NCBI RefSeq assembly: GCF_005280295.1
Contig: NZ_CP040020.1
Location: 1 to 64,000, forward strand
Source: Brevibacterium sp. CS2
GTDB lineage: Bacteria > Actinomycetota > Actinomycetes > Actinomycetales > Brevibacteriaceae
Length of the DNA stretch: 64,000 nucleotides
Direction: 5' to 3'
Below are positions 1 to 14,435 of this stretch, piece by piece. Made by a program: the position numbers and the translations under genes. The notes under the pieces were generated by a model. That model worked only from the letters and a program-made list of their open reading frames with translations, was not told where the DNA came from and made no database searches. How positions within the stretch are numbered: the first letter of the stretch is position 1; each line of letters begins with the position of its first letter.

Positions 1-2834
1 ATGGCGCGGTCGAGAACCTCGCGTCGAACGAGTCGGGGCAGGTAGGTGTAGCGGGTGAAGTAGCCCCACAGCTCGCCGACCGTGATCTCGCCGGCATCAC
101 GCCAGAGCGCACCGAGCTCGTGATGCAGGGTCGCCCCGAGGATCGGGGCGCCGAAGTCGGTGACGAGCTGATCCTCACGGCCGAGCTTGGCGCTGACACG
201 CTCGGCCAGGGATCGTCCGCCGGAGTCGGGCACCCTGTCGGCGACGAGCTCGAACGGCTTGGTCGGGTCGAACTGCTCGGGGTAAACGGCCCAGACGAAG
301 GTGTCGCGGATGCGGTCGGAGACGGTCTGATCGAGCCGGGATACCCAGTCGTCGGTCTGCTTGCGCTGTTGCGCGGACAGGTTGAGGCTGTCGCTGGTGG
401 CCTGGACTCGCTTCCAGCCGAGGTAGCTGCGGGTCGCGGCTTCGAGGCTCTCCAGCTCGCTCTTGTCGGCGAGGAGGAAGATCAGCGTGTTGCGGTGGAT
501 GCGTTGGCTGGCGCCCTTGCTCTCGATAGCGTCACGGACCCACGCGTGCGCGGCCGAGTCGGCACCGTCCTGCTTGCGACGGGCGTACCGCGGGTGGGCG
601 ATTACCAGGCGTGTGTCTTCGAGGTCGGGGATGTCGGCGGACGACGACGGGGCGATGTGGACCCGGTCGAACACACCGCGCACGCGTTCTTCTCCTTGGA
701 GGCGGCGGGTGACCTCGTTCCAGACCGTTTCGACATCCTCGCGGAGCCGCTCGGCGTAGTCGTTCGCGGTCTTCGTGACGGACGGCTGGGTGTCGAACCA
801 GTAGTGGCCCTGCTCTTCGTAGAAGTAGGTCGAACGCTGCGCAAGCAACTCGACGGCACTGCCGAAGTTCCCAAGCGTGTCACCAGGGACGGCGGTGCCG
901 AGCCAGAGGTACTGCTTGTCGAGCCCTTTGCGGGTGCTCTTGATCCTGGGGGCCGCGCCCATGAAGATCGTGCGTGCGATGCGCTGGGTGACGAAGCGCT
1001 GGCCGAGGTTGGGGCGGTCGAGGTCGATCTGCTGAGCGGTCGATCCGGGGCCGTCGATGTCGGAGTCGATGATCGGCTTCCACTGGTCTTCGAGGTACTG
1101 CGTCAGGTCCGTGTTCACGGTCGTCGCATCCAGCGGCACGTTGCCGGGCAGGATCAGCGGCGAAGCATCGTTCGATGCCCACAGCTCGTGCACGATCGAC
1201 GAGACGAGCTTCAGCACACCACGGGTGCGCTGGAACCGCTCCAACGTCGACCAGTCCTCATACAAGCGATCCAGCAGCTCGGGGTGCAGCGGGTAGGACG
1301 CGCGGATGCGCTTCTCATAGTCGTCATTCGGCGACGCCGCATCACGCGGGAACAACGCGGTGTTGTTCTGGTACAGGTTCGCGAAACTGCGCGCCACAGC
1401 CGAGATCGTCGTGAGCCCTTCAGCGTTCGGTGCCTGGAACAGCCGTCGGCGCACGATCTCGAACGACTCGTCCTTGCTCGACGGCCGCCACTGGTCCGCG
1501 ACGCGACGGATCACGTTCTGGAGACGTTCGAGCGCGAGCTGGCCGTTCGCACCACCGATCTCGATATCACTGCCGCGCCCGTCGGTGCCGGTGTCGGAGG
1601 CCGGGATCGAGACCACGAGCATCACGCCCGGGACGGAGCGCACGATCTCGGTCAGGGACTGGGCGAAGGTGAACTGCGTTTCGAACGAACCGGACGGGAG
1701 TTCCTTGTCCGTGACGAGCTGGCGCGCGTAGGCCACCCACTCGTCGATCAGGATCAGGGACGGCGAGTAGCGCACGATCAGAGTGCGCAGCGCTTCACCG
1801 GGGTTGGTGCCCGCGCGGTCGTCCTCGGCGATCAGGTCGTAGGCTTCACGCCCGCCGAGCTGCCAGGCGAGTTCACCCCAGAGCGTGCGAACCTCGGTGC
1901 CGTCGTCCTTGATGATCGGCGACCCGGCCTTCAGGTAGGTGCCAACGAGGGCGACCCGTCGCACGTCGAGTGCGCCGAGGTCGGGGTTGCCGTTCGCGGC
2001 GATGAGTTCCTGCAGTTCCTGCGGGAAGTCCTTGGCCGGGGTGCCGCTGAACAGGTGATACAGCGCCAGCATCGAGTGGGTCTTTCCGCCGCCGAAGTTG
2101 GTCTGAAGGTTCACGACCGGGCTTGCGCCGGCTTCGCCGTTCAGTCGGCGCAGCGCGCGTGACAGTAGGTCGCGCAATCCCTCGGTGAGGTAGGTACGGG
2201 TGAAGAACTCGACCGGATCGCCGTACTCCGGGCTCGTCGCTTGACCCGTGTGGACAAGGTGAAGGTCGGCCGCGAACTCCGATGCGGTGAACGCGCCGCG
2301 CGCCACGTCATCGTGGGGCCGGATCACCTCACGCCACGGGCGCAGTCCGGAGCCAGGTTCGAGCGATACCTTCGTACGCTTCACCTGTTTGCGGGTCTGA
2401 TCCTCGAACACCGTGCGCTGTAGATCGACGCGCAGCTTCCGTACGTCCTCGGCGGAATCGACCGCGCCGACCGCGTGCAGCAGCCGCTCAATCGTGTCGA
2501 GCGCGCGCGATGCGTCATCGGAGCTGAAGGGCTCGCTGTGCGCCCACAGGTTCCGAGTCTCGCGAAGCTCGGACGCGAAGCCCTGCTGGGCGCGGGAGAG
2601 CACGTCCTTGAAGTGATAGCCCTGCTCGGTAATGGCACGAAGCTGTACCTGTACGTCGTGCTTGGTCAGCGTGCGTAGTGGCCCGCCCCGGCGCTGGGCA
2701 TCCTCTTTCGCCCACGCGGCGGGCCAGTCGGCGGTCTTGTAGGCCCGCGTCATGACCTCATCGACCTCGTCCAGGAGCCCCTCGGAGAGCAGGTCGAACG
2801 CCTTGCCTACTCGATCTCGGTTGTTCATCGCCAT
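1..2834 (-). CDS. Swt1/HEPN-DUF499 ATPase, anti-phage-associated (C-terminus beyond window)
   Basis: About 944 codons are visible and the frame runs off the left edge. The N-terminal ~130 residues look like a Swt1-type HEPN domain with an RNLWAH (R-x4-H) motif near residue 94. A P-loop with core GGGKTH sits near residue 248 and a Walker B-like LILIDEW follows about 130 residues later, the arrangement of DUF499 ATPases found next to DUF1156 methyltransferases. The ATG at 2834 is chosen because AGGAGA lies seven bases upstream; a second ATG two codons later is possible. It is the last visible gene of the operon begun at 10743. The likely role is an ATPase, perhaps with HEPN RNase activity, in a phage-defence complex. 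The family call is firm; the function is inferred. Confidence 0.85.
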   Translation of the reverse strand, partial: MAMNNRDRVGKAFDLLSEGLLDEVDEVMTRAYKTADWPAAWAKEDAQRRGGPLRTLTKHDVQVQLRAITEQGYHFKDVLSRAQQGFASELRETRNLWAHSEPFSSDDASRALDTIERLLHAVGAVDSAEDVRKLRVDLQRTVFEDQTRKQVKRTKVSLEPGSGLRPWREVIRPHDDVARGAFTASEFAADLHLVHTGQATSPEYGDPVEFFTRTYLTEGLRDLLSRALRRLNGEAGASPVVNLQTNFGGGKTHSMLALYHLFSGTPAKDFPQELQELIAANGNPDLGALDVRRVALVGTYLKAGSPIIKDDGTEVRTLWGELAWQLGGREAYDLIAEDDRAGTNPGEALRTLIVRYSPSLILIDEWVAYARQLVTDKELPSGSFETQFTFAQSLTEIVRSVPGVMLVVSIPASDTGTDGRGSDIEIGGANGQLALERLQNVIRRVADQWRPSSKDESFEIVRRRLFQAPNAEGLTTISAVARSFANLYQNNTALFPRDAASPNDDYEKRIRASYPLHPELLDRLYEDWSTLERFQRTRGVLKLVSSIVHELWASNDASPLILPGNVPLDATTVNTDLTQYLEDQWKPIIDSDIDGPGSTAQQIDLDRPNLGQRFVTQRIARTIFMGAAPRIKSTRKGLDKQYLWLGTAVPGDTLGNFGSAVELLAQRSTYFYEEQGHYWFDTQPSVTKTANDYAERLREDVETVWNEVTRRLQGEERVRGVFDRVHIAPSSSADIPDLEDTRLVIAHPRYARRKQDGADSAAHAWVRDAIESKGASQRIHRNTLIFLLADKSELESLEAATRSYLGWKRVQATSDSLNLSAQQRKQTDDWVSRLDQTVSDRIRDTFVWAVYPEQFDPTKPFELVADRVPDSGGRSLAERVSAKLGREDQLVTDFGAPILGATLHHELGALWRDAGEITVGELWGYFTRYTYLPRLVRREVLDRA

Positions 2835-2895
2835 CGTTGTCTCCTAGAACCCAATACTTGGTGCCGACGTGGCTGCATACCGCGCCGGCCAATCC

Positions 2896-4013
2896 CTACT
2901 CATCGAAGTCTTCTTCCGCCGCTGCGGTGAGCTGCCTCCGAGCGATCCGCTCCTGTGCCTCCCGGTAGACCGCCTGGATACCAGCTTGGAGCTCTGCCTT
3001 GGGCGGCAGGGTCGTCCAATACTCCGCGACGACGATTCCGTCCTTGTGGAGTTCGAGCAGCTCGATCTGATCGCGGCTCGCCTCGGTACACAGGATGAGG
3101 CCGATGGCGGGTTCTCGTCCGCCTGGCGCTCGTGCCGGTCCAGCCACTTCAGGTAGAAGTTCATCTGCCCCTGGTAGCTCGGCTTGAACTTGCCGACCTT
3201 CAACTCCACCGCGATCAGCCGACGCAGTGGACGGGAGTAGAACAGCAGGTCGAGGTAGTAGTCGTCTCCGTCGAAGGTCATGCGCTTCTGACGTTCGACG
3301 AACGCCCACCCGCGCCCGACCTCCAGCAGGAACGCCTCCATGTCGTGGACCAGAGCTGATTCGAGGTCGTGCTCCAAGTAGGTGTCGGCCAGGCCTAGCA
3401 TGTCCAGCAGCATCGGGTCACGGAAGGCATCGAGCGGGACAGCTGAGCCCTCGGGAATCTGGGAGTCGGCAATCTCGCGACGCTCGAACGCCTTGCGTTC
3501 GATGGCGTGCCGGAGCTCACGAACGTTGAGTCGGCGGCCGATGGTCTCCTTCACGTAGAACGCTCGCGCCTCCGCGCTGGCCAACGGCAGTAGCGCCTTG
3601 AAGTGGGTCCAGCTAACTTGTTGCCCCAGTGAGGCAACAAGTTCGGGCTCGGCGAACTGCTGGGAGAAGCGCACCATCCGGTAGAGGTTGGTCCGGTCGA
3701 AGCCGCGTCCATACCTGGAGGTCAATTGTTGCCCCAGCGAGGCAACAAGTTCCTGATCGTGCCCCGCCCGGCCCTCACGCAGCACGGCCACGTCGATCAT
3801 CCGCCCGATGTACCAGTTCCGGAGAGTGAGCGTCGCGTCCACCTGAGTGGCCGCGAACGTCTGCGCCTGCTCAATCAGAGCCGACACCTGATCGACGAGC
3901 TCACCACCCGAGGCACTGACTGACTCCGCGATGGCCCGGAACGGAGTCAGGTCAGCGCCAGAGCGGCGCGCGCCTGCGCCGCGGCTTTGGGCTTGATCTC
4001 GCTGTCCGGGCAT
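2896..4013 (-). pseudogene. DUF1016/YhcG-type PD-(D/E)XK nuclease, frameshifted
   Basis: The first ~300 residues form a DUF1016 N-terminal domain followed by a nuclease core (DLLFYSRPLRRLIAVELKVG, with the Asp and the ExK of the PD-(D/E)XK site). After HERQADENPP the family continues IGLILCTEASRDQIELLEL, but here that segment lies in another frame. One base appears to be missing at about 3105-3111. Downstream the second frame is intact to its stop at 2896 and ends in an acidic tail. Read across the shift, the protein would be about 370 residues, the usual family length. It starts three bases after the methyltransferase stop. Either the gene is broken, the ORF uses frameshifting, or the assembly has an indel. 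Two copies of an ELVASLGQQ peptide are coded by hairpin-forming DNA (see repeat). Confidence 0.8.
3615..3750. repeat. Pair of near-identical hairpin repeats inside the DUF1016 gene
   Basis: At 3615-3643 an 11-base arm AACTTGTTGCC is followed by a 7-base loop and its perfect complement. At 3724-3750 the same element recurs with one mismatch in the arm and one change in the loop (CCAGTGA versus CCAGCGA). The copies lie about 109 bases apart in the same orientation and both keep the reading frame, coding ELVASLGQQ twice. DUF1016 proteins often carry similar peptides at these two places, so some similarity is protein-driven. The DNA-level palindromes are stronger than needed for that. Confidence 0.7.
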
Positions 4014-4016
4014 GAC

Positions 4017-6863
4017 CTAATCCTCGTCCTCGTCGAAGTCGAACTCCTGCTGGGACGAGCGCGGCGTCGAGGCGTACTTGCGCGCCTGCTCGTTCACGTC
4101 ACCCCAGGCACTCACCAGACCATTGAAGAGGATCGCGTCCTTCGTGTCCTTCTTCTTCTCGGCCTCGTGGAACAACAGGAAGCCCAACTCCTTCACCGCA
4201 TCCAAGTTCACGCGCGTTTGAACTGACGGCAGCAGCTCCGCCACCTTGTCGGCACCGTCCTTCGCCATCACCGCGGCGAGACGAACCGTCGCCTCCCAGA
4301 CGCTCACCCGCTCGTCGGCTGCTGCATCCCAAGCTCCTTCGAGCTGGACGGGCGGGAGCAGGCGTGCCTTGCCACCCTTCGCCTCGAAGATGCCGCCGCG
4401 CTCAAGTGCCCCAATCGACGTATCCGAAGACCGTGCGAGTTGATCCGCGATTCCTGAGTTCTCTTGGCCCCAGCCGTACTGCCGATACCACTTCACCGCG
4501 AACCGTGTATCGGGGTCGAAGTCGGACTCCTGCTCACCGAGAACTTCATCCAGCGTGGAGTTGATTAGCAGGAGGGCATCCTTCACGCTCATATCTGATC
4601 CATCGGCTTCCCGGACACGCGAAAATCGGGAAAAAACCGCGATCCCGGGGCCAATCGCTGCTTGGGCCAAGTCCACTGGCGCGATTGAACCCTGAATAAG
4701 CGTTCGGAGCGCCTCGGGCAACTCCGACTTCAGCGCAGCGACGAATGCGCGACGTGTTGTGGCGCTCGCGGTCGCCTCTCGGGGGCGACAGGCCAAGAGA
4801 ATCGATGATGCAAGGGCATTTGTTCCCACGCTCACCATTCGGCCGCTGCGCTCGCTACGCATCGGCCAGGTTGCGTTGACCTCCCACCCTGACTCGATTA
4901 GCCCGCTCAAGAGCGTATGCCAGCCAGTCGAGGAAGTTCCTGTGTCGCGGGTGTCCTGCTGCTTGTAGGCGTAGTAGACGGTCATGGGGATGCCTGGCTC
5001 CGCTCCCTCGCGGATTCGTCGGAAGACCTGATTGAACCCTTGGACGAAGAACTTCTCGGCCCCATCGCGACCGCCGTGGCGATTCGGGTTCGCCACAAGT
5101 TCTCCGTCCTTCGGGGTGAGGAGGGTCCCCAAGACATCTGGGTGGACACCGCCGAGTGAGCGACGAAGCCACACGTAGAAGAAGTCTGAGAGGTCGGAGT
5201 AGCCGATGTTGTCGTAGTACGGCGGGTCAGTGCTCACAACGTAACCGGCGTAGTCACGAGTGGCCGCATCTGCTTGCTGAACGCGACCTGCCGCAGAGCT
5301 GGTTCCCATCGGCATGGCTGCGACGCCAGCCGCCACCCAGTCCACGTGTGTATAGAAGTGGCCGACTGAGTTCGAGAACGGGTTGATCTCGACATAGTCC
5401 CAGACCATGGGAAGAGCTTGGCGGGCGAAGGTGTCTCGCACCCCTTCGATTCCCGAAATCCAGCTGCAAATCGAAGATGACCAGTCCGACAGTTTGCTAA
5501 GGGCAAAGGCAAGGTATGTAGCGACGGCGTCCCCGTAGGCAACCGCTCCGCGCCCACCGGACTCAAAGCTCTCGCCTTCATGCATGCCTTGAGCGATCGC
5601 GTCCGCGATGACCTTGTCCCTAGCCTTTGTGATGAGGTCACTGATAGTCGTAAGAACCAGAAGCTGACGGTTCGTGAAGGCGTCCGCCCAGGTCGGCATG
5701 CCGTACATCGGGAGACGATCCACGTCATGGTTGCGGGTGGGAATCAACTGGTCGGGGACGTCCGTGGGTCGGTCCACGAGTGCAGCTTGGATGTGCTCTT
5801 CGCTTGGTTCGATATAGAGTCGGCGCCGCTCGCCCTCCGCGACAATCGCGATCAGGTGCACCCCTAGACGTCCGGCCCTTGCCTCTGCGCGAATGTAGTC
5901 GTTGTCGATCACCGTGCCGTCGCCCAGCGCGATGGCATTACCACGTCGCATTGTGCCGTCGTCGTCTTTGCTCGGACCGAACTTGTCATGGCGGATCGTG
6001 TACTTGACGGCTCCATCCACGACCTTTGCTTCGATCCAGGCTTCCCTGCCCTTCTTCTTGCTGAGCCACCAGGAACGCACCAGAGGCGTCTCGATCGGAT
6101 TGAACGGGTTGGGGCTCCGTACGGTGCGAGCCCAGAGCCAGGCGATGACCGTATGCTCCGTCCCACCCGGCGCTACAACTTTCGGGTAGCTGTCTCCGAC
6201 CTGAGCAAAGGCTTCGTCTCTGAGCCAGGCGCCATACTTCCTGACATCCTCGGCGAGACCTGATGCGTCAGCCCAGTCGACGGAGAGCGCCTGGGCACCG
6301 GGATGGACAGGTGGTTGATCTGCGAACCTTGTTGGAATCTCCAGCAGCCCTCGGGTCTTGAGAACCGCTACGGGATTCAAGTCGGACGCGAAGGTCTCCA
6401 GACCGAGTCGTTGGGCTTCCAGAGGTATCGCGCCTCCGCCAGCGAAAGGGTCGAGGAATCGAAGCTGACGGTCCGGTGTGGACCGTCGAATCTCGTGCCG
6501 TGCTTGTTCCAGTAGTGGCTTGTTATTTGAGTTCTCCCACTTCGCCAGCTCGGCTAGGAGCGCATGCAGGCGTGCCCTCTCAGCATCCTGCTGCTCGGGT
6601 GTAGCGAACTCCTCTGGACGCGAAGAAGGGTCATCAACCAGCTGCGCGAACAACACTGCCCTGGCTGCCGCAAGAGGTCTCGGCGCCCAGTACAGATGCA
6701 TCGTTGCCGGGTGCCCTTTGCGAGGCACGGACTTCTCGTGTTGGGCAGCCTCGTTGATGGCATTCAGCGGTAGCGAGACTTCGATGAGCTTCTTCTTGGG
6801 TGCGTTGGTCACGGGGCTTCTCTCGCTGGCGTCGGGCTGGTTGTTGTCGGTGGGGTGGGTCAT
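4017..6863 (-). CDS. DUF1156 DNA methyltransferase, anti-phage-associated
   Basis: The 948-residue protein begins with a DUF1156 domain (KKKLIEVSLPLNAINEAA near residue 23, then a HPATMHLYWAPRPLAAARAV stretch). An AdoMet-binding motif FLDPFAGGGA lies at residues 137-146 and a catalytic DPPY at 546-549, continuing YDNIGYSDLSDFFYVW. The wide spacing of the two motifs is typical of this family. DPPY points to amino-methylation, probably N6-adenine or N4-cytosine; the target sequence cannot be read from the gene. Its ATG overlaps the helicase stop (ATGA), so translation is probably coupled. It would act as the self-marking methylase of the helicase-methylase-ATPase module. Codon use looks less GC-biased than in the chromosome to the right, in line with transfer. 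Confidence 0.9.
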   Translation of the reverse strand: MTHPTDNNQPDASERSPVTNAPKKKLIEVSLPLNAINEAAQHEKSVPRKGHPATMHLYWAPRPLAAARAVLFAQLVDDPSSRPEEFATPEQQDAERARLHALLAELAKWENSNNKPLLEQARHEIRRSTPDRQLRFLDPFAGGGAIPLEAQRLGLETFASDLNPVAVLKTRGLLEIPTRFADQPPVHPGAQALSVDWADASGLAEDVRKYGAWLRDEAFAQVGDSYPKVVAPGGTEHTVIAWLWARTVRSPNPFNPIETPLVRSWWLSKKKGREAWIEAKVVDGAVKYTIRHDKFGPSKDDDGTMRRGNAIALGDGTVIDNDYIRAEARAGRLGVHLIAIVAEGERRRLYIEPSEEHIQAALVDRPTDVPDQLIPTRNHDVDRLPMYGMPTWADAFTNRQLLVLTTISDLITKARDKVIADAIAQGMHEGESFESGGRGAVAYGDAVATYLAFALSKLSDWSSSICSWISGIEGVRDTFARQALPMVWDYVEINPFSNSVGHFYTHVDWVAAGVAAMPMGTSSAAGRVQQADAATRDYAGYVVSTDPPYYDNIGYSDLSDFFYVWLRRSLGGVHPDVLGTLLTPKDGELVANPNRHGGRDGAEKFFVQGFNQVFRRIREGAEPGIPMTVYYAYKQQDTRDTGTSSTGWHTLLSGLIESGWEVNATWPMRSERSGRMVSVGTNALASSILLACRPREATASATTRRAFVAALKSELPEALRTLIQGSIAPVDLAQAAIGPGIAVFSRFSRVREADGSDMSVKDALLLINSTLDEVLGEQESDFDPDTRFAVKWYRQYGWGQENSGIADQLARSSDTSIGALERGGIFEAKGGKARLLPPVQLEGAWDAAADERVSVWEATVRLAAVMAKDGADKVAELLPSVQTRVNLDAVKELGFLLFHEAEKKKDTKDAILFNGLVSAWGDVNEQARKYASTPRSSQQEFDFDEDED

Positions 6864-9800
6864 CGCGGTGGTGCTCCGCGTTCCCAGTAGTCGCGCCAGA
6901 CCTCGTTGTAGGAACGGGTGGTCGCGGATGGCTCAAGGTGGGTGAAGGCGTCGCTCACGTAGCGCAACTGGTCGTTGGGAGCACCGCTGGTCGAGACCTC
7001 GACGAGGGCGAGCCGGTGCCGGTCGCCTTGGGTCTGGGCGAAGGTGATCTCGTTCGTGGTGATGGTGAACGTGTCGGAGCCTTCGATGCGGCCCTTGACC
7101 TCGATGTAGTGGACGAAGCCGCCTTTGTCGGTGGACTGGATGTCGTAGCCGGGGTTGTTGCGCGGCATCTCGACAGGTTCGCGCCCAAGTGCTCGCTCGG
7201 CGGCGAGCACGGCTTCGACCGCTCGACGCTCGACTTCCTCGGTCTGACGGGCGAAGGTCTGTGCTTCAGGCTCGTTGTCGGTCGCGAGGAGCGCACTGGG
7301 GATGACGAGAGCGGCCCCGCGGATGACGGCGGGTACGGCGACAAGGTTGGTGGCCTCATCGAGCTGTTCGAGCCGGTGGCTCAGCCGCTCATCGAGTTGT
7401 CGGGCACGAACGAGCGCGGTCTCGGCGCGGAGCCTGCCGACGGTGCCTCCTCGTTCGAGGGCTTCGAGGCGGTTGTGTTCTCGATCCCAGTGGTTGATCT
7501 CGGCCAGCAAGCGATCCTTGACCTGCGCCCGGGTGCGCGCGGTCTCGATGTCGAGGCGGGTCTTGATCTCGTCCATTCGGGGCTGGAGCCCTTCACGGTA
7601 GGCCCACGCGCGCACGAGCTTCTCGTGGTTCTGCCGCGCCCAATCGCTGCCCGCGATCTCCGCGATGGCTTCGGTCTCAGTCGAGTCCGGTCGGTCATAG
7701 TCGAGGTAGGGCGGTGCTGCGGACACGGTGACGGTGCCGTCTTGTTCGAGGAGTGGGTAGTCGAAGTGGTGAGAAACCGTGTCGGCATCGGCGGCGGTGT
7801 TCTCGATGCGCTGCTCGACGCTGAACATCAGCATCGGTGCGTCGGTCTGCTTGGTGCGCCGGTCGACCAGCACCGTGCCTTGCTTGAGAGTGGGGCCGAG
7901 GTCGTCGATGGTTGCCTCGATCACGGCGTGCAGCAGCGGGTGGCCTGGTGCGATGAGGGAGGCGTCGGCGAGCCCGTCGGGGTGCATGCGTGAGAGTTCG
8001 AAGGTGATGCGCTCGTACTGCTCAGCGACGGGTGCCCATCGGTTGAGGCGACGCGCCGTGTCGATGACGCGGGCCGGGACGCGGGTGATCTCGTAGCGGC
8101 CGTTCTCGCGCTTGCGGATGCGTCCGCCGAGCCGGGTGAGCGCGGGGAGGAAGAAGGCGGCGATGTAACCGGGCTGGAGTCGGCGTTCGCGGGCCTTCTC
8201 CATGCGTGCGCGAACTTCGTCGAGGTTGAGTGCGGAGAACATCTCGGGGTGGAGTGCGCGCTCGGCGAGCATCTCGTCGAGGCCGTGGGAGACGCCGGCG
8301 TCGATGATGCGGTCGAGCTTGGCCTTGACCTGGGGCTGGTCGCCGTAGCGGATTGCCTCGATCAGCAGGTCACGCAGCGACCGCTCTTGGAAGGCGTCGG
8401 CGTCGCCGAGCACGTTGAACAGGTTGCCGTTGTAGGCGATTGACATCTGGTCAATCTTCGCCAGCAGCCGGGTGAACACGTCGCCCTCGCGGGTGTCGCG
8501 GGCGAACATGTTCCACAGGTGGCAGACCTCGCGCTGGCCGATGCGGTGGATGCGGCCGAAGCGCTGCTCGATGCGGTTCGGGTTCCACGGCAGGTCGTAG
8601 TTCACCATCAGGTGCGCACGTTGAAGGTTCAGGCCTTCCCCGGCGGCGTCCGTGGCCAGTAGGACCACGGTGTCGGGGTTGTGGGTGAAGCGTTCGCGGG
8701 CGAGCTTGCGGTCTTCGCGGCGGGTGCCGCCGTGGATCGTGATGACCGAATCGGCACGCCCGAACTGGGCGGTGATCTTGGCTTGCAGGTAGTCGAGGGT
8801 GTCGCGGTGCTCGGTGAAGATGATGATCTTGCGAGCATCGCCGGAGCCGTCGTGGGTCAGGAGCTGCTCGTCGAGGATGGTGCGCAGCTGCACCCACTTC
8901 TTGTCATCGTCTTGCAGCCGGACGCGCCGGGCGACCTTGATGAGGTCTTCGAGGATCGCGATCTCAGCCCGCAGCTCGGGGATGGTCTGCGCGGCTGTGG
9001 CGAGATCGACAACCTGGTCTGCCTGTTCCTCGAACTGGGCGCGTTCCTCGTCGGTCGTCTCTTCGTGGAAGTCCTCGAAGTCGTCGACCGAGAATGCGGG
9101 CAGCGCGTCGCTTCCGAAGTCGAGCGTGGTCTTGCCTGTTGTCCATTCGTCGATGTGGGAGGAGATGGAGGTGCTGAAGCGTGCGTCGTCGGTGATGCGC
9201 TGCATGTCGCGCAGTTTCGTGTCGAGGCGTTGCTGGCGTCGTTCCAGGGAGCGCAGGATCGCTTCGGGGCTGGAGGCGAGGCGGCGTTGCAGCACGGTGA
9301 GGGCGAACCCGACGTTGTTGCCGCGCTTCTTGTCCCCGGCCTGTGCGATCCGCTCGGCCCGTCCCATCTCGGTGCGGACGTAGTCGGTGACCTGTTCGTA
9401 GAGGTCTCGCTCGGCCGGGCTCAGCTCGTACTCGACGGTGTAGGCCTTGCGTTCGGGGAACAGCGGCTTGCCCTCGAAGGTGAGCAGGTCTTCTTTCACC
9501 ATGCGGCGCATCAGGCCGTCGGTGTCGGTGCGATGCACGCCTTGCCGGTACTGGCCCTCGAAGCGGTCGCGATCCAGCAGCGACATGAAGAGCTGGAAGT
9601 CCTCTTCCTTGCCCGCGTGCGGGGTCGCGGTCATCAGCAGGAAGTTGTGCGCGGTCTCCGAAAGCAGGCGTCCGAGTTTGAAGCGCTTGGTCTCATCGAC
9701 TTCGCCCGCCCAGGAGGAGTAGTGGGCCGACATGCGGTGGGCCTCGTCAACGACGGCGACATCCCAGGTGACCTCGCCGAGCTGCTCGGTCAGGTCTTCG

Positions 9801-10462
9801 CTGCGGGAGAGCTGATCCATGCGGGCGATCAAGAACGGGTGCTCGGCGAAGACGTTACGGCCCTGGGCGCCATCGACCATCTGGCGGCTGAAGATCTCGA
9901 AGCGCAGGTCGAACTTCCGACTGAGTTCCTCCCGCCACTGCTCCACGAGCCCACCGGGAGCGACGATGATGGCGCGCTCGCAGTCCGAGCGCAGGATCAG
10001 CTCCTTCAGGTACAGCCCGGCCATGATCGTCTTGCCCGCGCCGGGGTCGTCGGCCAGCAGGAACCGCAGCGGAATGCGCGGCAGCAGTTCGTCGTAGACC
10101 GCGCGAATCTGGTGCGGCAGCGGGTCAACGTCCGAGCTGTTGACCGCGACCATCGGGTCATACAGCGCCGCGTACTTGATCCTCAGTGCCTCGGCTGCGA
10201 GCCGGAACTCGTCCGGGTCGGCATCGTAGGCCGGAGCGGAGTCGAAGTCACCCGCGACCTCGAAGCGTGCGGCGTCGGCGTCGGTGATCGCACGTGCGCC
10301 GCTGCGACCGGCGTCATCGCGGTAGAAGACCTCGAAGAGCTCGGCGTCGATAGGGTCGATGGCGATCAGGGTGACCGCCTGCCCCGGCACCAGGCCACGG
10401 AGGCGCTGGCCCGCGCGCAGCGTCGCGAGCGTCAATGTCGCGTCGGTCGTCGCGTCTGTCAC
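6860..10462 (-). CDS. SNF2/superfamily 2 helicase with C-terminal DUF3883 domain
   Basis: The 1200-residue protein has Walker A DDPGAGKT (GAGKT at 141-145), DEAH at 239-242 and a helicase C-terminal half with IIFTEHRDTLDYL, ATDAAGEGLNLQ and an arginine-finger region RFGRIHRIGQ near residue 650. The C-terminal ~110 residues carry a DUF3883 signature (PGYDIQSTDKGGFVHYIEVK), a nuclease-like fold found at the end of several defence helicases. A middle region is rich in charged helices. The start is the GTG at 10462, preceded by GGAAGGAGG. It heads the methylase-nuclease-ATPase series with a 4-base overlap to the methylase. DISARM helicases share the SNF2 core, but no DrmB or DrmC is visible. Confidence 0.9.
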   Translation of the reverse strand: MTDATTDATLTLATLRAGQRLRGLVPGQAVTLIAIDPIDAELFEVFYRDDAGRSGARAITDADAARFEVAGDFDSAPAYDADPDEFRLAAEALRIKYAALYDPMVAVNSSDVDPLPHQIRAVYDELLPRIPLRFLLADDPGAGKTIMAGLYLKELILRSDCERAIIVAPGGLVEQWREELSRKFDLRFEIFSRQMVDGAQGRNVFAEHPFLIARMDQLSRSEDLTEQLGEVTWDVAVVDEAHRMSAHYSSWAGEVDETKRFKLGRLLSETAHNFLLMTATPHAGKEEDFQLFMSLLDRDRFEGQYRQGVHRTDTDGLMRRMVKEDLLTFEGKPLFPERKAYTVEYELSPAERDLYEQVTDYVRTEMGRAERIAQAGDKKRGNNVGFALTVLQRRLASSPEAILRSLERRQQRLDTKLRDMQRITDDARFSTSISSHIDEWTTGKTTLDFGSDALPAFSVDDFEDFHEETTDEERAQFEEQADQVVDLATAAQTIPELRAEIAILEDLIKVARRVRLQDDDKKWVQLRTILDEQLLTHDGSGDARKIIIFTEHRDTLDYLQAKITAQFGRADSVITIHGGTRREDRKLARERFTHNPDTVVLLATDAAGEGLNLQRAHLMVNYDLPWNPNRIEQRFGRIHRIGQREVCHLWNMFARDTREGDVFTRLLAKIDQMSIAYNGNLFNVLGDADAFQERSLRDLLIEAIRYGDQPQVKAKLDRIIDAGVSHGLDEMLAERALHPEMFSALNLDEVRARMEKARERRLQPGYIAAFFLPALTRLGGRIRKRENGRYEITRVPARVIDTARRLNRWAPVAEQYERITFELSRMHPDGLADASLIAPGHPLLHAVIEATIDDLGPTLKQGTVLVDRRTKQTDAPMLMFSVEQRIENTAADADTVSHHFDYPLLEQDGTVTVSAAPPYLDYDRPDSTETEAIAEIAGSDWARQNHEKLVRAWAYREGLQPRMDEIKTRLDIETARTRAQVKDRLLAEINHWDREHNRLEALERGGTVGRLRAETALVRARQLDERLSHRLEQLDEATNLVAVPAVIRGAALVIPSALLATDNEPEAQTFARQTEEVERRAVEAVLAAERALGREPVEMPRNNPGYDIQSTDKGGFVHYIEVKGRIEGSDTFTITTNEITFAQTQGDRHRLALVEVSTSGAPNDQLRYVSDAFTHLEPSATTRSYNEVWRDYWERGAPPR

Positions 10463-10551
10463 GAGGTGCCTCCTTCCGGTTTTGGGCAGTGGATCAGGAT
10501 ATGGGGTGCCACCGACAAAGTGTCAGCGGCGGCTCGAAGTGAGCGACGCGC

Positions 10552-10743
10552 TCAGCCTGACGGGGAGGGTTCGGAGTCGGCGGCTGCGCCACCTCGTCGG
10601 ACCCAGTCGTCGATCTCGCTGGCTTGGAACTTCCAGAGGCGTCCGACCTTGTGGGCGGGCATGGCCTTCTCGGCGATCCAGGTGTAGACGGTGTCTTTGG
10701 TGATCCCGAGGTGGGCGGCGATGTCGTCTGCGGACAGCCACGT
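10552..10743 (-). CDS. Excisionase/AlpA-type helix-turn-helix protein with no normal start codon
   Basis: The frame codes WLSADDIAAHLGITKDTVYT, then WIAEKAMPAHKVGRLWKFQA and a short tail, a typical 60-residue MerR-like/excisionase HTH protein of mobile islands. Upstream in the same frame there is only ACG (10743-10741) before TGG, and a TAG stops the frame 15 bases earlier. A good GGGAGG lies just before the ACG, where an ATG is expected. So the start was probably ATG and is changed to ACG, or translation uses ACG or the later CTG, or a GTG one frame over plus a shift. It lies 89 bases upstream of the helicase and probably regulates the operon or excision. Confidence 0.65.
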   Translation of the reverse strand, partial: TWLSADDIAAHLGITKDTVYTWIAEKAMPAHKVGRLWKFQASEIDDWVRRGGAAADSEPSPSG

Positions 10744-10876: not shown

Positions 10877-12013
10877 TCAGTGCAGGACGCGGGCCTTGAG
10901 CCAGGTGGTCACTGTCTCGTGCCACAGGTCGGGGTCGGCGTTCCAGCAGAGGGTGTGGCCAGCGTCGAAGGTCGCCAGATCAACAAGGTCCGGTCGCGCG
11001 TCGCGGAGTGCTTGTGAGAGCCGGATGGGTACGGAGTCGTCTCGGGCGCCGTGGAGGATCAGGGTCGGCGTAGGGAGGTCTTCGGCTCGGGCGGTCCAGT
11101 CGAAGGTGCGAAGTGGGATGAGGCCCGGCAAGCCGACCGTGCGAGCCGGTGGGCCGATGGTGAGCCACGGGATCGCGAGGTGTCCGGCTGCTGCGGGCAG
11201 TCCGCTGCGGACGCAGTTGGCCTTGATGACTTCGGTCCAGTTGAGGACTGGTGAGTCGAGGACGAGCGCGGCGATCAGTCCCTCGCGTCGGGGGTGGTCG
11301 GCGAGTTGGAGGGTGATGGCGGCGCCCATTGACCAGCCGAAGAGAACGATCTGTTGGGCTCCGCGTCGGACGGCGTATCCGATGGCTTCGTCAACGTCTG
11401 CTGCCTCGGTGTGGCCGAGGGTTGTTCGGCCGGTGCCGACGGTTGGCCCTTCTGCGGTGTTGCGGTAGCTGACGACGAGGGAGGTGTAGCCGAGTTCGGT
11501 TGCGGCGAGGACGCCGCGGAGGGTGCCGGCTCGGGTGCTGCCGAGGCCGTGGATGTGGATCGCCCAGGTTGAGGGGTCGCCGTCGATGCGCCAGGTCGGG
11601 CATGGCCCTGCCGGGGTGGTGATGGTGATGTCACGTACGTGGAGTCCGGCGTCGGCTGGGGTGGCGTAGTAGATGCCGCTCCAGGAGGCACGGTCGCCGG
11701 CCTGCGGGGTGAGGCCGGGTGAGGTGGCCCTGATCCTTCGCGCGACGCGGGTGTGCCCGTGATCGGTGATCTCGGTGGAGAGCTGGACCCAGCCGCCGTG
11801 CTCGAACCAGAGGTTGTAGATGCCGGGTGCGGTGGTCTGGTCTGTGCGGTCGAGCACGATCAGGTCGCCGTTGCCGTCACGCTCGACGCCTCGGACGGTC
11901 AGGTCGAACGTGCGCGGGCCAGCGGGTGCGGTGAGCCGTCGCGCGATGACGTACCCGACCCCTGCCGTCGCTGCTGCCGCGATCCCGCCGCCGAGGGCGA
12001 TGCGGCCGATCAC
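10877..12013 (-). CDS. Alpha/beta hydrolase with N-terminal membrane anchor
   Basis: The 378-residue protein starts with a hydrophobic segment (residues 4-24) and then a serine hydrolase domain. The nucleophile elbow is GWSMG (Ser228), with acidic HGARDD near 321-326 and DAGH (His353). An IHIHGLGST oxyanion stretch is at about 152-160. The substrate is unknown; the fold is shared by esterases, peptidases and lysophospholipases. The GTG at 12013 overlaps the upstream stop (GTGA), so it is coupled to the membrane-protein gene. It is the third gene of the ImmA-like/membrane protein/hydrolase run. Confidence 0.8.
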   Translation of the reverse strand: MIGRIALGGGIAAAATAGVGYVIARRLTAPAGPRTFDLTVRGVERDGNGDLIVLDRTDQTTAPGIYNLWFEHGGWVQLSTEITDHGHTRVARRIRATSPGLTPQAGDRASWSGIYYATPADAGLHVRDITITTPAGPCPTWRIDGDPSTWAIHIHGLGSTRAGTLRGVLAATELGYTSLVVSYRNTAEGPTVGTGRTTLGHTEAADVDEAIGYAVRRGAQQIVLFGWSMGAAITLQLADHPRREGLIAALVLDSPVLNWTEVIKANCVRSGLPAAAGHLAIPWLTIGPPARTVGLPGLIPLRTFDWTARAEDLPTPTLILHGARDDSVPIRLSQALRDARPDLVDLATFDAGHTLCWNADPDLWHETVTTWLKARVLH

Positions 12014-13020
12014 GATTCCCGCTCCTCGACGTAGGGAACGGGCGAGGTCGTCGGGACGGTGGTGTCGCTTCCGACGAGGTGGCTCTCGGCGCGTTCGAGC
12101 AGGTCACGGTCGTCGGCGCTGGTGGCGAAGGTGATACGGGGGTCGATCATTGCGTCGCGGATTTCGACGATCACGCGGTGGAGGTGTCCTTCGGGGTCTT
12201 CGCTGTTGGCGGCGAGGGGGTCGGCCTGGCTCAGCCCGGGCCGCGCGAGCGTCGCTCGATGCCAGAGCGGCTCCAGCTGCGCTGTGTACGCGATGGTGTG
12301 CCTCTGCCGGGCGTGGTGCTGCGCCCGGCGGACGGCGGGCTGGACCGTGAACCCGGCGCAGAGGAACAGGAAGGTGAAGATGGACAGCGGGTCGTAGGCA
12401 GGCTGGATAGCGTGCATGAGGTCGAGGTGGCCGGTGGCGTGGGCAATATCCATGACGATCACGGCGAGGCAGAGCGCGACACCGAACGTCGATCCCAGGC
12501 TCAGCAGTGCGGCGGGCAGGCGCTGGATGCCGCTGCTGTGCCGGTACTGCCGTGCAGCGAGGACGAGCATCGTCGCGATGACGAGTGTTCCGTAGCTGAA
12601 GTTGATGATCGAGTAGACCGCGGCTGCTGGCTGCGCGCCGAGGTCGCTCATGAATCGTGTCGTGGTGGTGCCGCGGTCGATGGACAGGAACGATGAGGTG
12701 ATCGCGAGCAGTGCGATGAGCAGGACGGGTGCGCTGACGGCGGCGCGGACGAGTCTGGGCCGGTACTCGCCGGACTTCATGACGCCGCGCCCGAGGAAGA
12801 AGAGCCCGGTCATCAGCAGGGCGTCCGCGATCAGCGTCGCGATGTTCGTGCCGCCGAAGAGCGGATCGACGACCGCGTAGATGGCATCGACGTTGAGCGT
12901 CATCGCGATGGCGATGGTGAGGGCGGCGTAGGTGACGCTGCGGTCGGTGCGTTTGCGGCGGAAGATGAGCAGGCTCGCCACGAGCGCCCACATGAGCGTC
13001 GCGACGAGCGTCTGGATCAT
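12010..13020 (-). CDS. Multi-pass membrane protein, MAB_1171c-like
   Basis: The start is the ATG at 13020, overlapping the stop of the ImmA-like remnant (ATGA). The 336-residue product has about seven or eight hydrophobic segments in its first ~240 residues and a hydrophilic C-terminal cytoplasmic region. Actinobacterial loci pairing an ImmA/IrrE-like protein with such a membrane protein (MAB_1171c family putative transporter) are common. The transported substrate is not known, and 'transporter' is a database label rather than a shown activity. A much longer frame extending upstream is only GC-driven read-through. Loss of the 5' part of the upstream gene may have removed this gene's promoter. 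Confidence 0.75.
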   Translation of the reverse strand: MIQTLVATLMWALVASLLIFRRKRTDRSVTYAALTIAIAMTLNVDAIYAVVDPLFGGTNIATLIADALLMTGLFFLGRGVMKSGEYRPRLVRAAVSAPVLLIALLAITSSFLSIDRGTTTTRFMSDLGAQPAAAVYSIINFSYGTLVIATMLVLAARQYRHSSGIQRLPAALLSLGSTFGVALCLAVIVMDIAHATGHLDLMHAIQPAYDPLSIFTFLFLCAGFTVQPAVRRAQHHARQRHTIAYTAQLEPLWHRATLARPGLSQADPLAANSEDPEGHLHRVIVEIRDAMIDPRITFATSADDRDLLERAESHLVGSDTTVPTTSPVPYVEERES

Positions 13021-13265
13021 CCGAAGACCTCCGAGTAGGCCGATTCGGCGAACACCGCCCCTCGGATGCCTGCGGCGAGCCGGTCCGCGAGGGACTCGGC
13101 GGCGATCTCGGTTTCGCTGTCGAGGTCTTGCCGACTGAGCAGGCGTGCGCGGGTGTACGGCGGGATGTTGGGCAGCAAGACTTCCTCGACGGCGCAGTCG
13201 TCGCCGTCGCAGTGGCCAAGGATCATGTGGGCGAGTTCGTGGAGCACGAACTGCTGACGGTGCAG
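13017..13265 (-). pseudogene. ImmA/IrrE-type zinc metallopeptidase, C-terminal remnant
   Basis: About 83 codons with metallopeptidase similarity remain: LHRQQFVLHELAHMILGH contains the HExxH zinc motif (HELAH), followed by LLPNIPP and an EIAAESLADRL helix that supplies the third-ligand region. Upstream of PPPLHRQQ the family similarity stops at about 13265. Beyond that point the same strand is only the antisense of a recombinase gene. The N-terminal third to half is therefore missing, and no start codon or ribosome site of its own can be assigned. Family members cleave repressors or act as toxins beside membrane partners such as the downstream gene. Confidence 0.8.
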
Positions 13266-14423
13266 CGGGGGCGGGAGGTACGCACTGTCGAGATCGACGA
13301 AGAACGAGCCCCGCTGGTCCGGTGGGCGTTCCAGGTGTTCGCATCCGGCGACTGGACGACGAGCCAGCTTCACCAGGAACTCGTAGCGCGTGGGCTCACG
13401 ACAGCAGCGTCGCCGCGACGACCATCCCGACCCATCGGCAAGTCGTCGGTGCATCGGATGCTGACGAACCCGTACTACAAGGGCAGCGTCCGCTACCAGG
13501 GCGTCACCTACGCCGGAGCGCACGAGGCGATCGTCCCCAACGAGGTGTGGGATCAGGTGCAGACCGTGCTCGGCACGCACCGCTCGGCCGCGGATGCGAC
13601 GCAAGTCCATGAGCACTACTTGAAGGGCACCGTGTTCTGCGGGCAGTGCGGGTCGCGGCTGCTGGTGTGCAACGCGAAGAGCAGCCAGGGCACGATCTAC
13701 CCGTACTTCGTCTGCGCCAGCCGTCACGGCGGCAGAGGCAACTGCACCCGGCAGGCGATGCTCATTGAGCAGGTCGAACGACTCATCGAGCGCTTCTATA
13801 CCAAGGTGCAGATCGACCCGGAAACGATCGAGGTGGTCTCGGCGATGCTCCATGCCCGGTTCGACGAGATGATGGCGGAAGGCGCCGCCGAGCTCGCCGA
13901 CCTCGCGTCCCGGAGAGCCCAGCTCGAAGGCGAGCAGCAGAAGCTGCTCCAAGCCCACTACGCCGGAGCGATCCCGCTCGACCTCCTCAAGCGCGAGCAG
14001 GACCGGATCACCGCGTCGTTGGAGACGATCGAGCACCGGATCACCGCGCACCACGGCCACTACGCCGCTGCGCGAGAGAACCTCGACGACTCCCTGAAAC
14101 TGCTGTCGAACGCCGCCGACATCTACGAGCACGCCGACGACGCGAACCGTCGGCTCCTCAACCAGGCGCTGGTCAAGACGATCTACATCGACGAGGACAA
14201 CGACGTGCGCGTCGGCTACCGCAACCCATACGACGGGCTGAGTATCCCCGGCCTCCACGCCGACGCCCTGAGCTGGGCCGCCGAGGCAAAGAGAATGGGC
14301 CAGGCTGAACCCTCGACCAAGGGCGGACCCTTGGCCGCGAGTTCAAACCTGACCCGTTTGGGGTGGCTAACGGGACTTGAACCCGCGACCCCCGCGACCA
14401 CAACGCGGTGCTCTACCAGCTGA
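13266..14423 (+). pseudogene. Large serine recombinase, N-terminal catalytic domain lost
   Basis: Similarity begins at RGREVRTVEIDEERAPLVRW, the recombinase domain, and continues through a zinc-ribbon with CGQCGSRLLVC and a later FVCASRHGGRGNC, then a long coiled-coil with ARFDEMMAEGAAELADLASR. The catalytic serine domain that should precede it is absent. Instead the sequence switches at about 13265 to the opposite-strand ImmA-like gene. The open frame continues 3' through the antisense of the tRNA-His gene (GWLTGLEPATPATTTRCSTS) and stops at 14423. The protein cannot catalyse strand exchange, so the island is probably locked in place unless helped in trans. Confidence 0.85.
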
Positions 14424-14435
14424 GCTATAGCCACC
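14362..14435 (-). tRNA. tRNA-His (GTG anticodon)
   Basis: The minus strand folds as a full cloverleaf, with the extra 5' G (position -1) paired to C73 as is specific for tRNA-His. The anticodon is GTG in the loop TTGTGGT, and CCA is not encoded. The 3' end faces the island and is overlapped by the end of the recombinase frame, so this gene is the probable attachment site. Confidence 0.95.

Follow-up and report, generated by a model that had tools for sequence, protein, structure and literature searches.

An Hma defence operon of Brevibacterium with an exchanged HmaB cassette and a putatively accessory DUF1016 nuclease

A five-gene defence operon lies on the minus strand at the start of the window, by which we mean the first 64,000 nucleotides of contig NZ_CP040020.1 of Brevibacterium sp. 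CS2. It raises two questions: which component tells host DNA from phage DNA, and whether a nuclease gene lodged among the others is a part of the machine. For operons of this kind, called Hma (helicase-methylase-ATPase) or BREX (bacteriophage exclusion)-related (BR), discrimination between self and phage has been inferred rather than demonstrated in those parts of the literature that are considered here; the same scope applies to all published work mentioned below. The answer that we consider likely is that the operon encodes a restriction-like system, of the Hma or BREX-related Type-1 kind, in which HmaB sets the specificity and the DUF1016 protein is a separate accessory nuclease.

The gene order is HTH (helix-turn-helix), HmaA, HmaB, DUF1016/YhcG nuclease and HmaC. 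Profile searches detected every domain named in a preliminary description of the window, which had been made from the sequence alone (Table 1). PADLOC models for HmaA, HmaB and HmaC scored 1301, 1032 and 776 bits, the last against the part of HmaC inside the window only, and the three genes stand in one locus, adjacent save for DUF1016. These scores uphold the Hma layout proposed in that description, and family membership supports the defence role that it assigned. The composition is also that of a BR Type-1 core (PMC12839542): a DUF499 AAA+ ATPase, a DUF1156 methylase and an SNF2 helicase, the last ending in a PD-(D/E)XK domain that retains its active-site residues and is a predicted nuclease. 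As in part of the BR Type-1 systems, a HEPN domain with an intact R-x4-H motif is fused to the N-terminus of the ATPase. Further traits reported for BR Type-1 are a C-terminal RRM-like domain in the DUF499 ATPase and an N-terminal Tudor domain in the helicase. The catalytic motifs are conserved: Walker A, DEAH and the NOV_C D...E-x-K (D...E-V-K in the window copy) are kept in all 19 aligned rows of HmaA, DPPY in all 19 HmaB rows that cover the motif, and R-x4-H in all 21 aligned HmaC rows.

We compared ten complete loci, namely the window and the loci that we number L005, L006, L008, L009, L011, L012, L013, L015 and L100; L007, L010 and L017, in which genes are missing or cut, were outside this comparison. 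Among the nine loci other than L009, pairwise identity is 93-98% for HmaA, 86-99% for HmaC and 71-97% for DUF1016. HmaB is the core gene that differs most between near-identical operons. Its residues 1-690 are 53-77% identical in the nine loci (the exception being the window and L100, at 90%), and its last quarter (716-948) is 89-97% identical in the nine and 76-79% identical to L009. The amino-acid divergence peaks between motif I and motif IV. Between unlike alleles, the ratio of nonsynonymous to synonymous substitution (dN/dS) in residues 1-690 is 0.11-0.22, above that of HmaA and HmaC, as might be expected if HmaB had simply evolved fast in place.

Synonymous sites are not expected to track selection on the protein. 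In six pairs of loci with like backbones (these pairs, and those used for dN/dS, were chosen by hand from the 45 possible), synonymous differences amount to 0.07-0.38 at the end of HmaA, 0.31-0.58 in HmaB codons 1-70, 0.52-0.84 in codons 71-834, 0.22-0.56 after codon 835, 0.07-0.38 in DUF1016 and 0.13-0.36 at the start of HmaC. Synonymous sites are thus near saturation within the HmaB block and not outside it. Because the jump is confined to this block, the history of the block differs from that of its surroundings, which argues for exchange. The window and L100, whose HmaA/HmaC backbones differ, have one HmaB allele (0.02-0.09 amino-acid-changing differences per site), which also points to exchange; the window and L005 have a common backbone and different HmaB alleles. 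Both the return of synonymous differences to a low level beyond the block and these combinations of allele and backbone make fast evolution in place highly improbable. To judge from the sequences, the HmaB cassette has been swapped between operons with near-identical HmaA. We regard this exchange as the best new observation of the analysis. The evidence for its novelty is weak: literature titles and abstract openings on Hma, DUF1156, DUF1016 and PDC-S02, with supplements and bioRxiv outside the scope, mention neither HmaB exchange nor DUF1016 in Hma operons.

Since the cassette moves between operons whose HmaA proteins are so nearly identical, HmaB is likely the specificity subunit. In BREX, PglX alone determines specificity, for methylation as well as for defence (PMC11341690; see also PMC11842806 for PglX/BrxX), and in the BR Type-1 survey a recognition insert is located within the core of the BR methylase (PMC12839542). 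By analogy with both, one methylase would be expected to set both specificities here as well, and HmaB is the likely factor. However, the recognition domain of PglX lies C-terminal to the methylase domain, whereas HmaB is most variable between motif I and motif IV. The high identity of the last quarter of HmaB is as expected of a docking part.

A structure model of HmaB (10 rows) has a mean predicted local distance difference test (pLDDT) score of 53; its most extended segment of better quality is residues 181-460 (block means 51-91). Foldseek gave no match to this model at E <= 0.001, and VIA-align returned S-adenosylmethionine-dependent methyltransferases of many kinds, with a Z score of 7.5 at best, too low to rely on. 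The DUF1016 model (13 rows) was unusable, with a pLDDT of 48. A sequence search of the PDB with DUF1016, HmaB and HmaC yielded only a 49-residue methyltransferase match for HmaB (0.0045) and weaker others. DPPY is an amino-methylase motif. The methylation written for Hma in the article that named it is 5-methylcytosine (PMC8565338), whereas the HmaB of the window bears DPPY.

The window operon contains three candidate effectors, not the two counted previously, since HmaA has its own PD-(D/E)XK domain (NOV_C/DUF3883). HEPN-DUF499 ATPases in operons with SNF2-DUF3883 helicases were described in 2013, as restriction-modification systems with the same architecture and the same pairing of DNase and RNase domains (PMC3710099). 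Hma was named in 2021 (PMC8565338); its HmaA, HmaB and HmaC are all present in the window operon, with high scores, and the window operon has DUF1016 in addition, between HmaB and HmaC. The 2026 survey of Type-1 BR systems found HEPN fused in 1370 of 2446 taxa and describes auxiliary PD-(D/E)XK nucleases inside or close to the locus (PMC12839542). HEPN also occurs on HmaC in 61 of 63 loci in our own collection (below), so the domain represents the common state and not a special addition to the window operon. The words DUF1016 and YhcG are absent from the main texts of PMC3710099 and PMC12839542; the assignment of YhcG to the PD-(D/E)XK nucleases is a prediction of 2005 (PMC1189080). The idea that DUF1016 makes up for a nuclease lacking in the helicase was rejected: the NOV_C D...E-x-K is present in HmaA of every aligned five-gene locus.

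PADLOC labels the DUF1016 gene PDC-S02 (8.5e-101 to PDLC04822). DUF1016_N and YhcG_C occur in one gene, as in PDC-S02, with the window copy covering only positions 3-110 of the 157 in YhcG_C (3-155 in L005). The closest relatives of this gene in genome contigs fall into 14 loci, eight of which (L005, L006, L008, L009, L011, L012, L013 and L015) have the order HmaA-HmaB-DUF1016-HmaC, with the HTH gene detected in six. L100, which came from an HmaB search, is a ninth complete relative. L007 and L017 are truncated by contig ends, and L014, L016 and L018 have no Hma genes on the fetched stretch, DUF1016 being full length only in L014. The association therefore extends beyond the window strain, as the preliminary description had proposed to check, to several actinobacterial families; hosts include Tessaracoccus, Propionibacterium, Nigerium, Actinomyces and Tersicoccus. 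The same gene order in such unlike hosts, at 93-98% HmaA identity (78-79% for L009), points to recent transfer of the five-gene locus between hosts. In an HmaC tree, the loci with DUF1016 form one supported group of ten and a separate pair, L009 and L010, with DUF1016-free loci between them; some of the intervening forks are weak. DUF1016 was probably gained, lost or moved more than once.

Some of these loci have further peculiarities. In L010 (L010:9163-14642), only remnants of HmaA and HmaB are left, DUF1016 and HmaC are intact, and HmaC is thus retained without a methylase. An open reading frame (ORF) with a PADLOC match to PD-T4-5 and a sub-cut-off match to Abi_2 now lies upstream of DUF1016 in this locus. 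Genome G1113 carries two five-gene operons (L005 and L011) with different HmaB alleles, and G1112 has three Hma loci (contigs C43, C51 and C136); both are metagenome-assembled genomes, in which mixed bins are possible. L017, on a short contig of G1112 (Spirochaetia), has a DUF1016 that is 92% identical to the window copy. In the spirochaete phylum, HmaB is matched at E <= 0.001 in 21 of 179 genomes, and above 400 bits only in G1112 (its three loci) and G1174.

Despite this recurrence, DUF1016 is rare among Hma loci in general. Among 394 genomes of the class, 24 have an HmaB match of at least about 470 bits and 9 have the DUF1016 nuclease domain above the cut-off; both occur in two, the window genome (G000) and G402, where they lie on different contigs. 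For a wider view we assembled loci reached by HmaB searches. HmaB matches of at least about 470 bits, one piece per gene and with weaker or fragmentary matches excluded, gave 40 regions, 35 of which have both HmaB and HmaC on the stretch. A third search added regions from 15 of 19 genomes, all 15 with both genes; the other four were G000 (the window), G225 and G725 (already included) and G911, represented by L007, whose HmaB piece is G911:C72:4775-5479 to judge by coordinates. With L007 itself, 51 loci result. DUF1016 stands between HmaB and HmaC in two of them, L100 and L007. It is also missing from L095-L097, three plasmid loci of the near lineage whose HmaA and HmaC are 74-82% and 81-86% identical to those of the window. 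HmaB of L095 is interrupted by an IS3 element (annotated IS3 transposase), and HmaB is also interrupted in L065 and L067, where the inserted ORFs look transposase-like by eye only.

Other genes occupy the same positions. After exclusion of ten loci without HmaB or HmaC on the stretch, 63 of 73 loci remained, in which HmaB and HmaC occur together and on most of which HmaA is also present. The two genes are less than 150 bases apart in 36 loci and enclose DUF1016 in 10; the remaining 17 have a wider gap that contains no DUF1016. A gene was identified in 10 of these 17 gaps: GmrSD_N in L053, L065, L087, L109, L111 and L112, NOV_C in L075, PIN in L072, NERD just below the cut-off in L054, and in L083 Schlafen AlbA_2 adjoining a PHP/AAA gene. 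The slot between HmaA and HmaB can likewise be filled, by GmrSD_N (L071; the gene in L073 agrees with it in length and first residues), NYN (L069), Schlafen AlbA_2 (L070 and L103), HEPN (L074), DUF3800 (L102) or DUF1643 (L056).

Lodgers of this sort are already known. A class of 'Hma-embedded candidates' has been published, and several of its members show antiviral activity (PMC12988326); the PDC names derive from a 'guilt-by-embedding' catalogue (PMC10855318; the PDC preprint, bioRxiv 2024.01.29.577857, is cited in PMC12988326 and PMC12755874). HEC-05, HEC-06 and PDC-S02 (PADLOC-DB v2; PMC12988326, PMC10855318) resemble the window operon in that an accessory gene is lodged in an Hma operon, DUF1016 being PDC-S02 itself. 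GmrSD genes in the gaps of other loci match the two HEC models, not as best match: for L109, L053 and L071 the HEC-05 match ranks below PDC-M55C, and for L111 the HEC-06 match, which spans the full length, ranks below Orf5. Beyond this catalogue, DUF1016 is seen here to recur as a lodger across a single mobile group of actinobacteria.

An obligate five-gene system was accordingly rejected as the main reading, given the two loci in 51, the plasmid relatives without DUF1016 and the DUF1016 relatives without Hma, and DUF1016 is not the regular Hma part that had been suggested. DUF1016 is missing from most Hma loci and from the sister plasmid loci, it has Hma-free relatives (three of the 14 closest, on the fetched stretch), and its window copy is broken; together these facts favour an independent embedded nuclease. 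Such an accessory fits the sequences better than a five-part machine.

Several observations nevertheless weigh against our reading, and some of them are what one would expect if the five genes did form a single machine, with DUF1016 as the dedicated DNase subunit of an Hma variant, recruited by HmaC or HmaB, which would give this lineage one more effector. In the window and its nine complete relatives, DUF1016 always lies between HmaB and HmaC, and in L010 it stays with HmaC after the loss of HmaA and HmaB. Its dN/dS is 0.07-0.16 in all 12 pairs chosen; in five chosen pairs the nuclease half is strongly constrained (0.02-0.07) and the N-terminal half less so (0.12-0.26). These low values suggest that DUF1016 was kept working in the relatives, with a faster-changing N-terminal half, and purifying selection also fits a coupled part. 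Distances of DUF1016 follow those of HmaC with r 0.94 when L009 is left out, a post hoc exclusion; in all ten loci, however, r is only 0.52 (Mantel p 0.09), and linkage alone could explain the relation. L070, a locus outside the group, has a DUF1016-like fragment (46%) just upstream of HmaA, where the contig begins (L070:110-298), which hints that the association of DUF1016 with Hma extends beyond the actinobacterial group. By contrast, DUF1016 is absent from the slot in 49 of the 51 other loci and in the three plasmid relatives, some close relatives stand alone, HmaA already has a nuclease domain of its own, and in the window DUF1016 is frame-broken and the Hma core is intact. We therefore consider the five-part machine unlikely. 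Other points concern HmaB. It is not the only gene exchanged: in L013, DUF1016 is 71-75% identical to the others and HmaC 86-88% to those of the other eight near loci, at 93-97% for HmaA. The poor HmaB model is no proof of a recognition domain. Finally, we infer from sequence the type of methylation, the logic of self and non-self, the order of events, the role of the RNase and the independence of DUF1016. A tie between the DUF1016 allele and HmaB specificity is not supported (r -0.13, p 0.76).

In the window strain, two of the five genes are out of frame, contrary to the picture of five working genes. An HTH_17 frame does come first, as described, and it has no ATG, GTG or TTG start when read by eye. 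The HTH genes of the six relatives shown begin GTG-GCT-GAG-CCG-TGG (GAA replaces GAG in one), and the nucleotides missing from the window comprise one of two 7-nt repeats and a 4-nt spacer. An intact relative (L005:3280-3477) matches HTH_17 at 1.8e-14 and PADLOC mad1 at 1.7e-12. The break in DUF1016 is downstream of the catalytic D...E-L-K. In all 11 other Hma-adjacent copies that extend past codon 303 or so (L005-L013, L015 and L100), the frame is open, spanning 362-372 codons from the match start.

These two lesions could mean that the locus is decaying or silenced in this strain, perhaps unregulated or inactive. However, HmaA, HmaB and HmaC are full length and keep their catalytic motifs. 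The lost DUF1016 frame is free of stops up to where it usually ends, so the break is either a recent lesion or a one-base assembly error. Moreover, the window and L100 still agree at 90% of HmaB residues 1-690, despite near-saturated synonymous sites. Decay of the operon is therefore doubtful.

Table 1. Features of the defence operon in the window
Feature	Coordinates	Strand	Evidence and remarks
HTH_17 (excisionase-like) frame, probable regulator	10552..10740	-	Start region damaged; lacks 11 nt present in relatives
HmaA, SNF2-family helicase, 1200 aa, GTG start	6860..10462	-	SNF2, Helicase_C and NOV_C matches
NOV_C/DUF3883 PD-(D/E)XK domain, HmaA C-terminus, residues 1077-1159	6986..7234	-	NOV_C 3.1e-19
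HmaB, DUF1156 amino-methyltransferase by motif	4017..6863	-	DUF1156 1.1e-23; motif I DPFAGGG 138-144, motif IV DPPY 546-549
Exchanged cassette within HmaB, about codons 71-834, edges approximate	4362..6653	-	Synonymous differences and DNA profile
DUF1016/YhcG PD-(D/E)XK nuclease gene	2844..4013	-	DUF1016_N 6.3e-33, YhcG_C 8.1e-36; frame lost near codon 303 (about 3105)
HmaC, HEPN_Swt1-DUF499 ATPase, first 944 of 1132 aa	1..2834	-	HEPN_Swt1 1.2e-30, DUF499 4.1e-30
HEPN_Swt1 domain, HmaC residues 11-123, R-x4-H (RNLWAH)	2466..2804	-	Profile match

The genes are closely packed. The overlaps of a few bases reported earlier hold for HmaA and HmaB (4 nt), the sole overlap, whereas HmaB and DUF1016 are 3 nt apart. 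HmaC crosses base 1 of the single 3,239,740-base contig, continues for 565 bases at the far end and stops at L003:19436 (G000:C1:3239176). Leftward extension, as recommended, thus closes the gene at its usual length (1131-1134 aa in relatives), from which we conclude that the record is circular and HmaC whole. Downstream of HmaC is an OLD/AAA_15-type ATPase gene (L003:17706-19424), and farther out are a P-type ATPase gene, an IS110 transposase gene and a frame that partly matches a cytosine methylase. No protein of the PglZ family, which marks BREX Type 3 loci, is among the matches listed in general scans of the operon and flank proteins, the flanks being partly scanned and no searches for PglZ or BrxL made.

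The OLD/AAA_15-like gene is 87% identical between the window and L100 (L100:1888-3600), two loci that also have a common HmaB allele. Its best plasmid relative is 37.5% identical (8 records), and three other matches, among 189 genomes of the order, reach at most 36%. About 12 kb past this gene is a second DUF1016/PDC-S02 gene (L003:5009-5950, G000:C1:3224749-3225690, + strand, 313 aa), which is 32% identical to the operon copy, ends early in YhcG_C (1-121 of 157) and has an IS110 transposase gene about 3 kb off. On the other side, between the operon and a tRNA-His gene, positions 10877-13344 contain alpha/beta hydrolase and MAB_1171c-like genes. Among the matches listed from 57 other genomes of the genus, this segment has only partial ones, the best at 84-86% in G772, and the tRNA is matched widely. 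The tRNA-His (14359-14434) is not supported as an island attachment site: its 20-base 3' end has no second copy in the genome at up to 3 mismatches.

In the mechanism that we propose, HmaB would read a DNA motif and place N6-methyl groups on host adenines. On phage DNA that lacks this methylation, motif-bound HmaB and the HmaC ATPase would license the HmaA helicase-nuclease to translocate and cut, and the HEPN domain of HmaC may be a held-back RNase that fires when restriction fails. The simplest reading is that HmaB would recognise the motif on behalf of the whole complex, its conserved C-terminus docking to a shared chassis. DUF1016 would be a separate accessory nuclease in the HmaB-HmaC slot, carried by some lineages only. 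A more far-reaching version would make HmaA, HmaC and usually DUF1016 a mobile chassis with three poised nucleases that is retargeted by HmaB swaps, so that HmaB alone directs HmaA, HEPN and DUF1016, the last being a true third effector. This version strikes us as decidedly unlikely.

Defence genes lodged in Hma operons come and go, and counting them as parts of the machine would mislead annotation. Natural operons with near-identical HmaA and HmaC and unlike HmaB are ready-made swap experiments for specificity. If both the motif and restriction do follow HmaB, the question of specificity would be settled with one gene.

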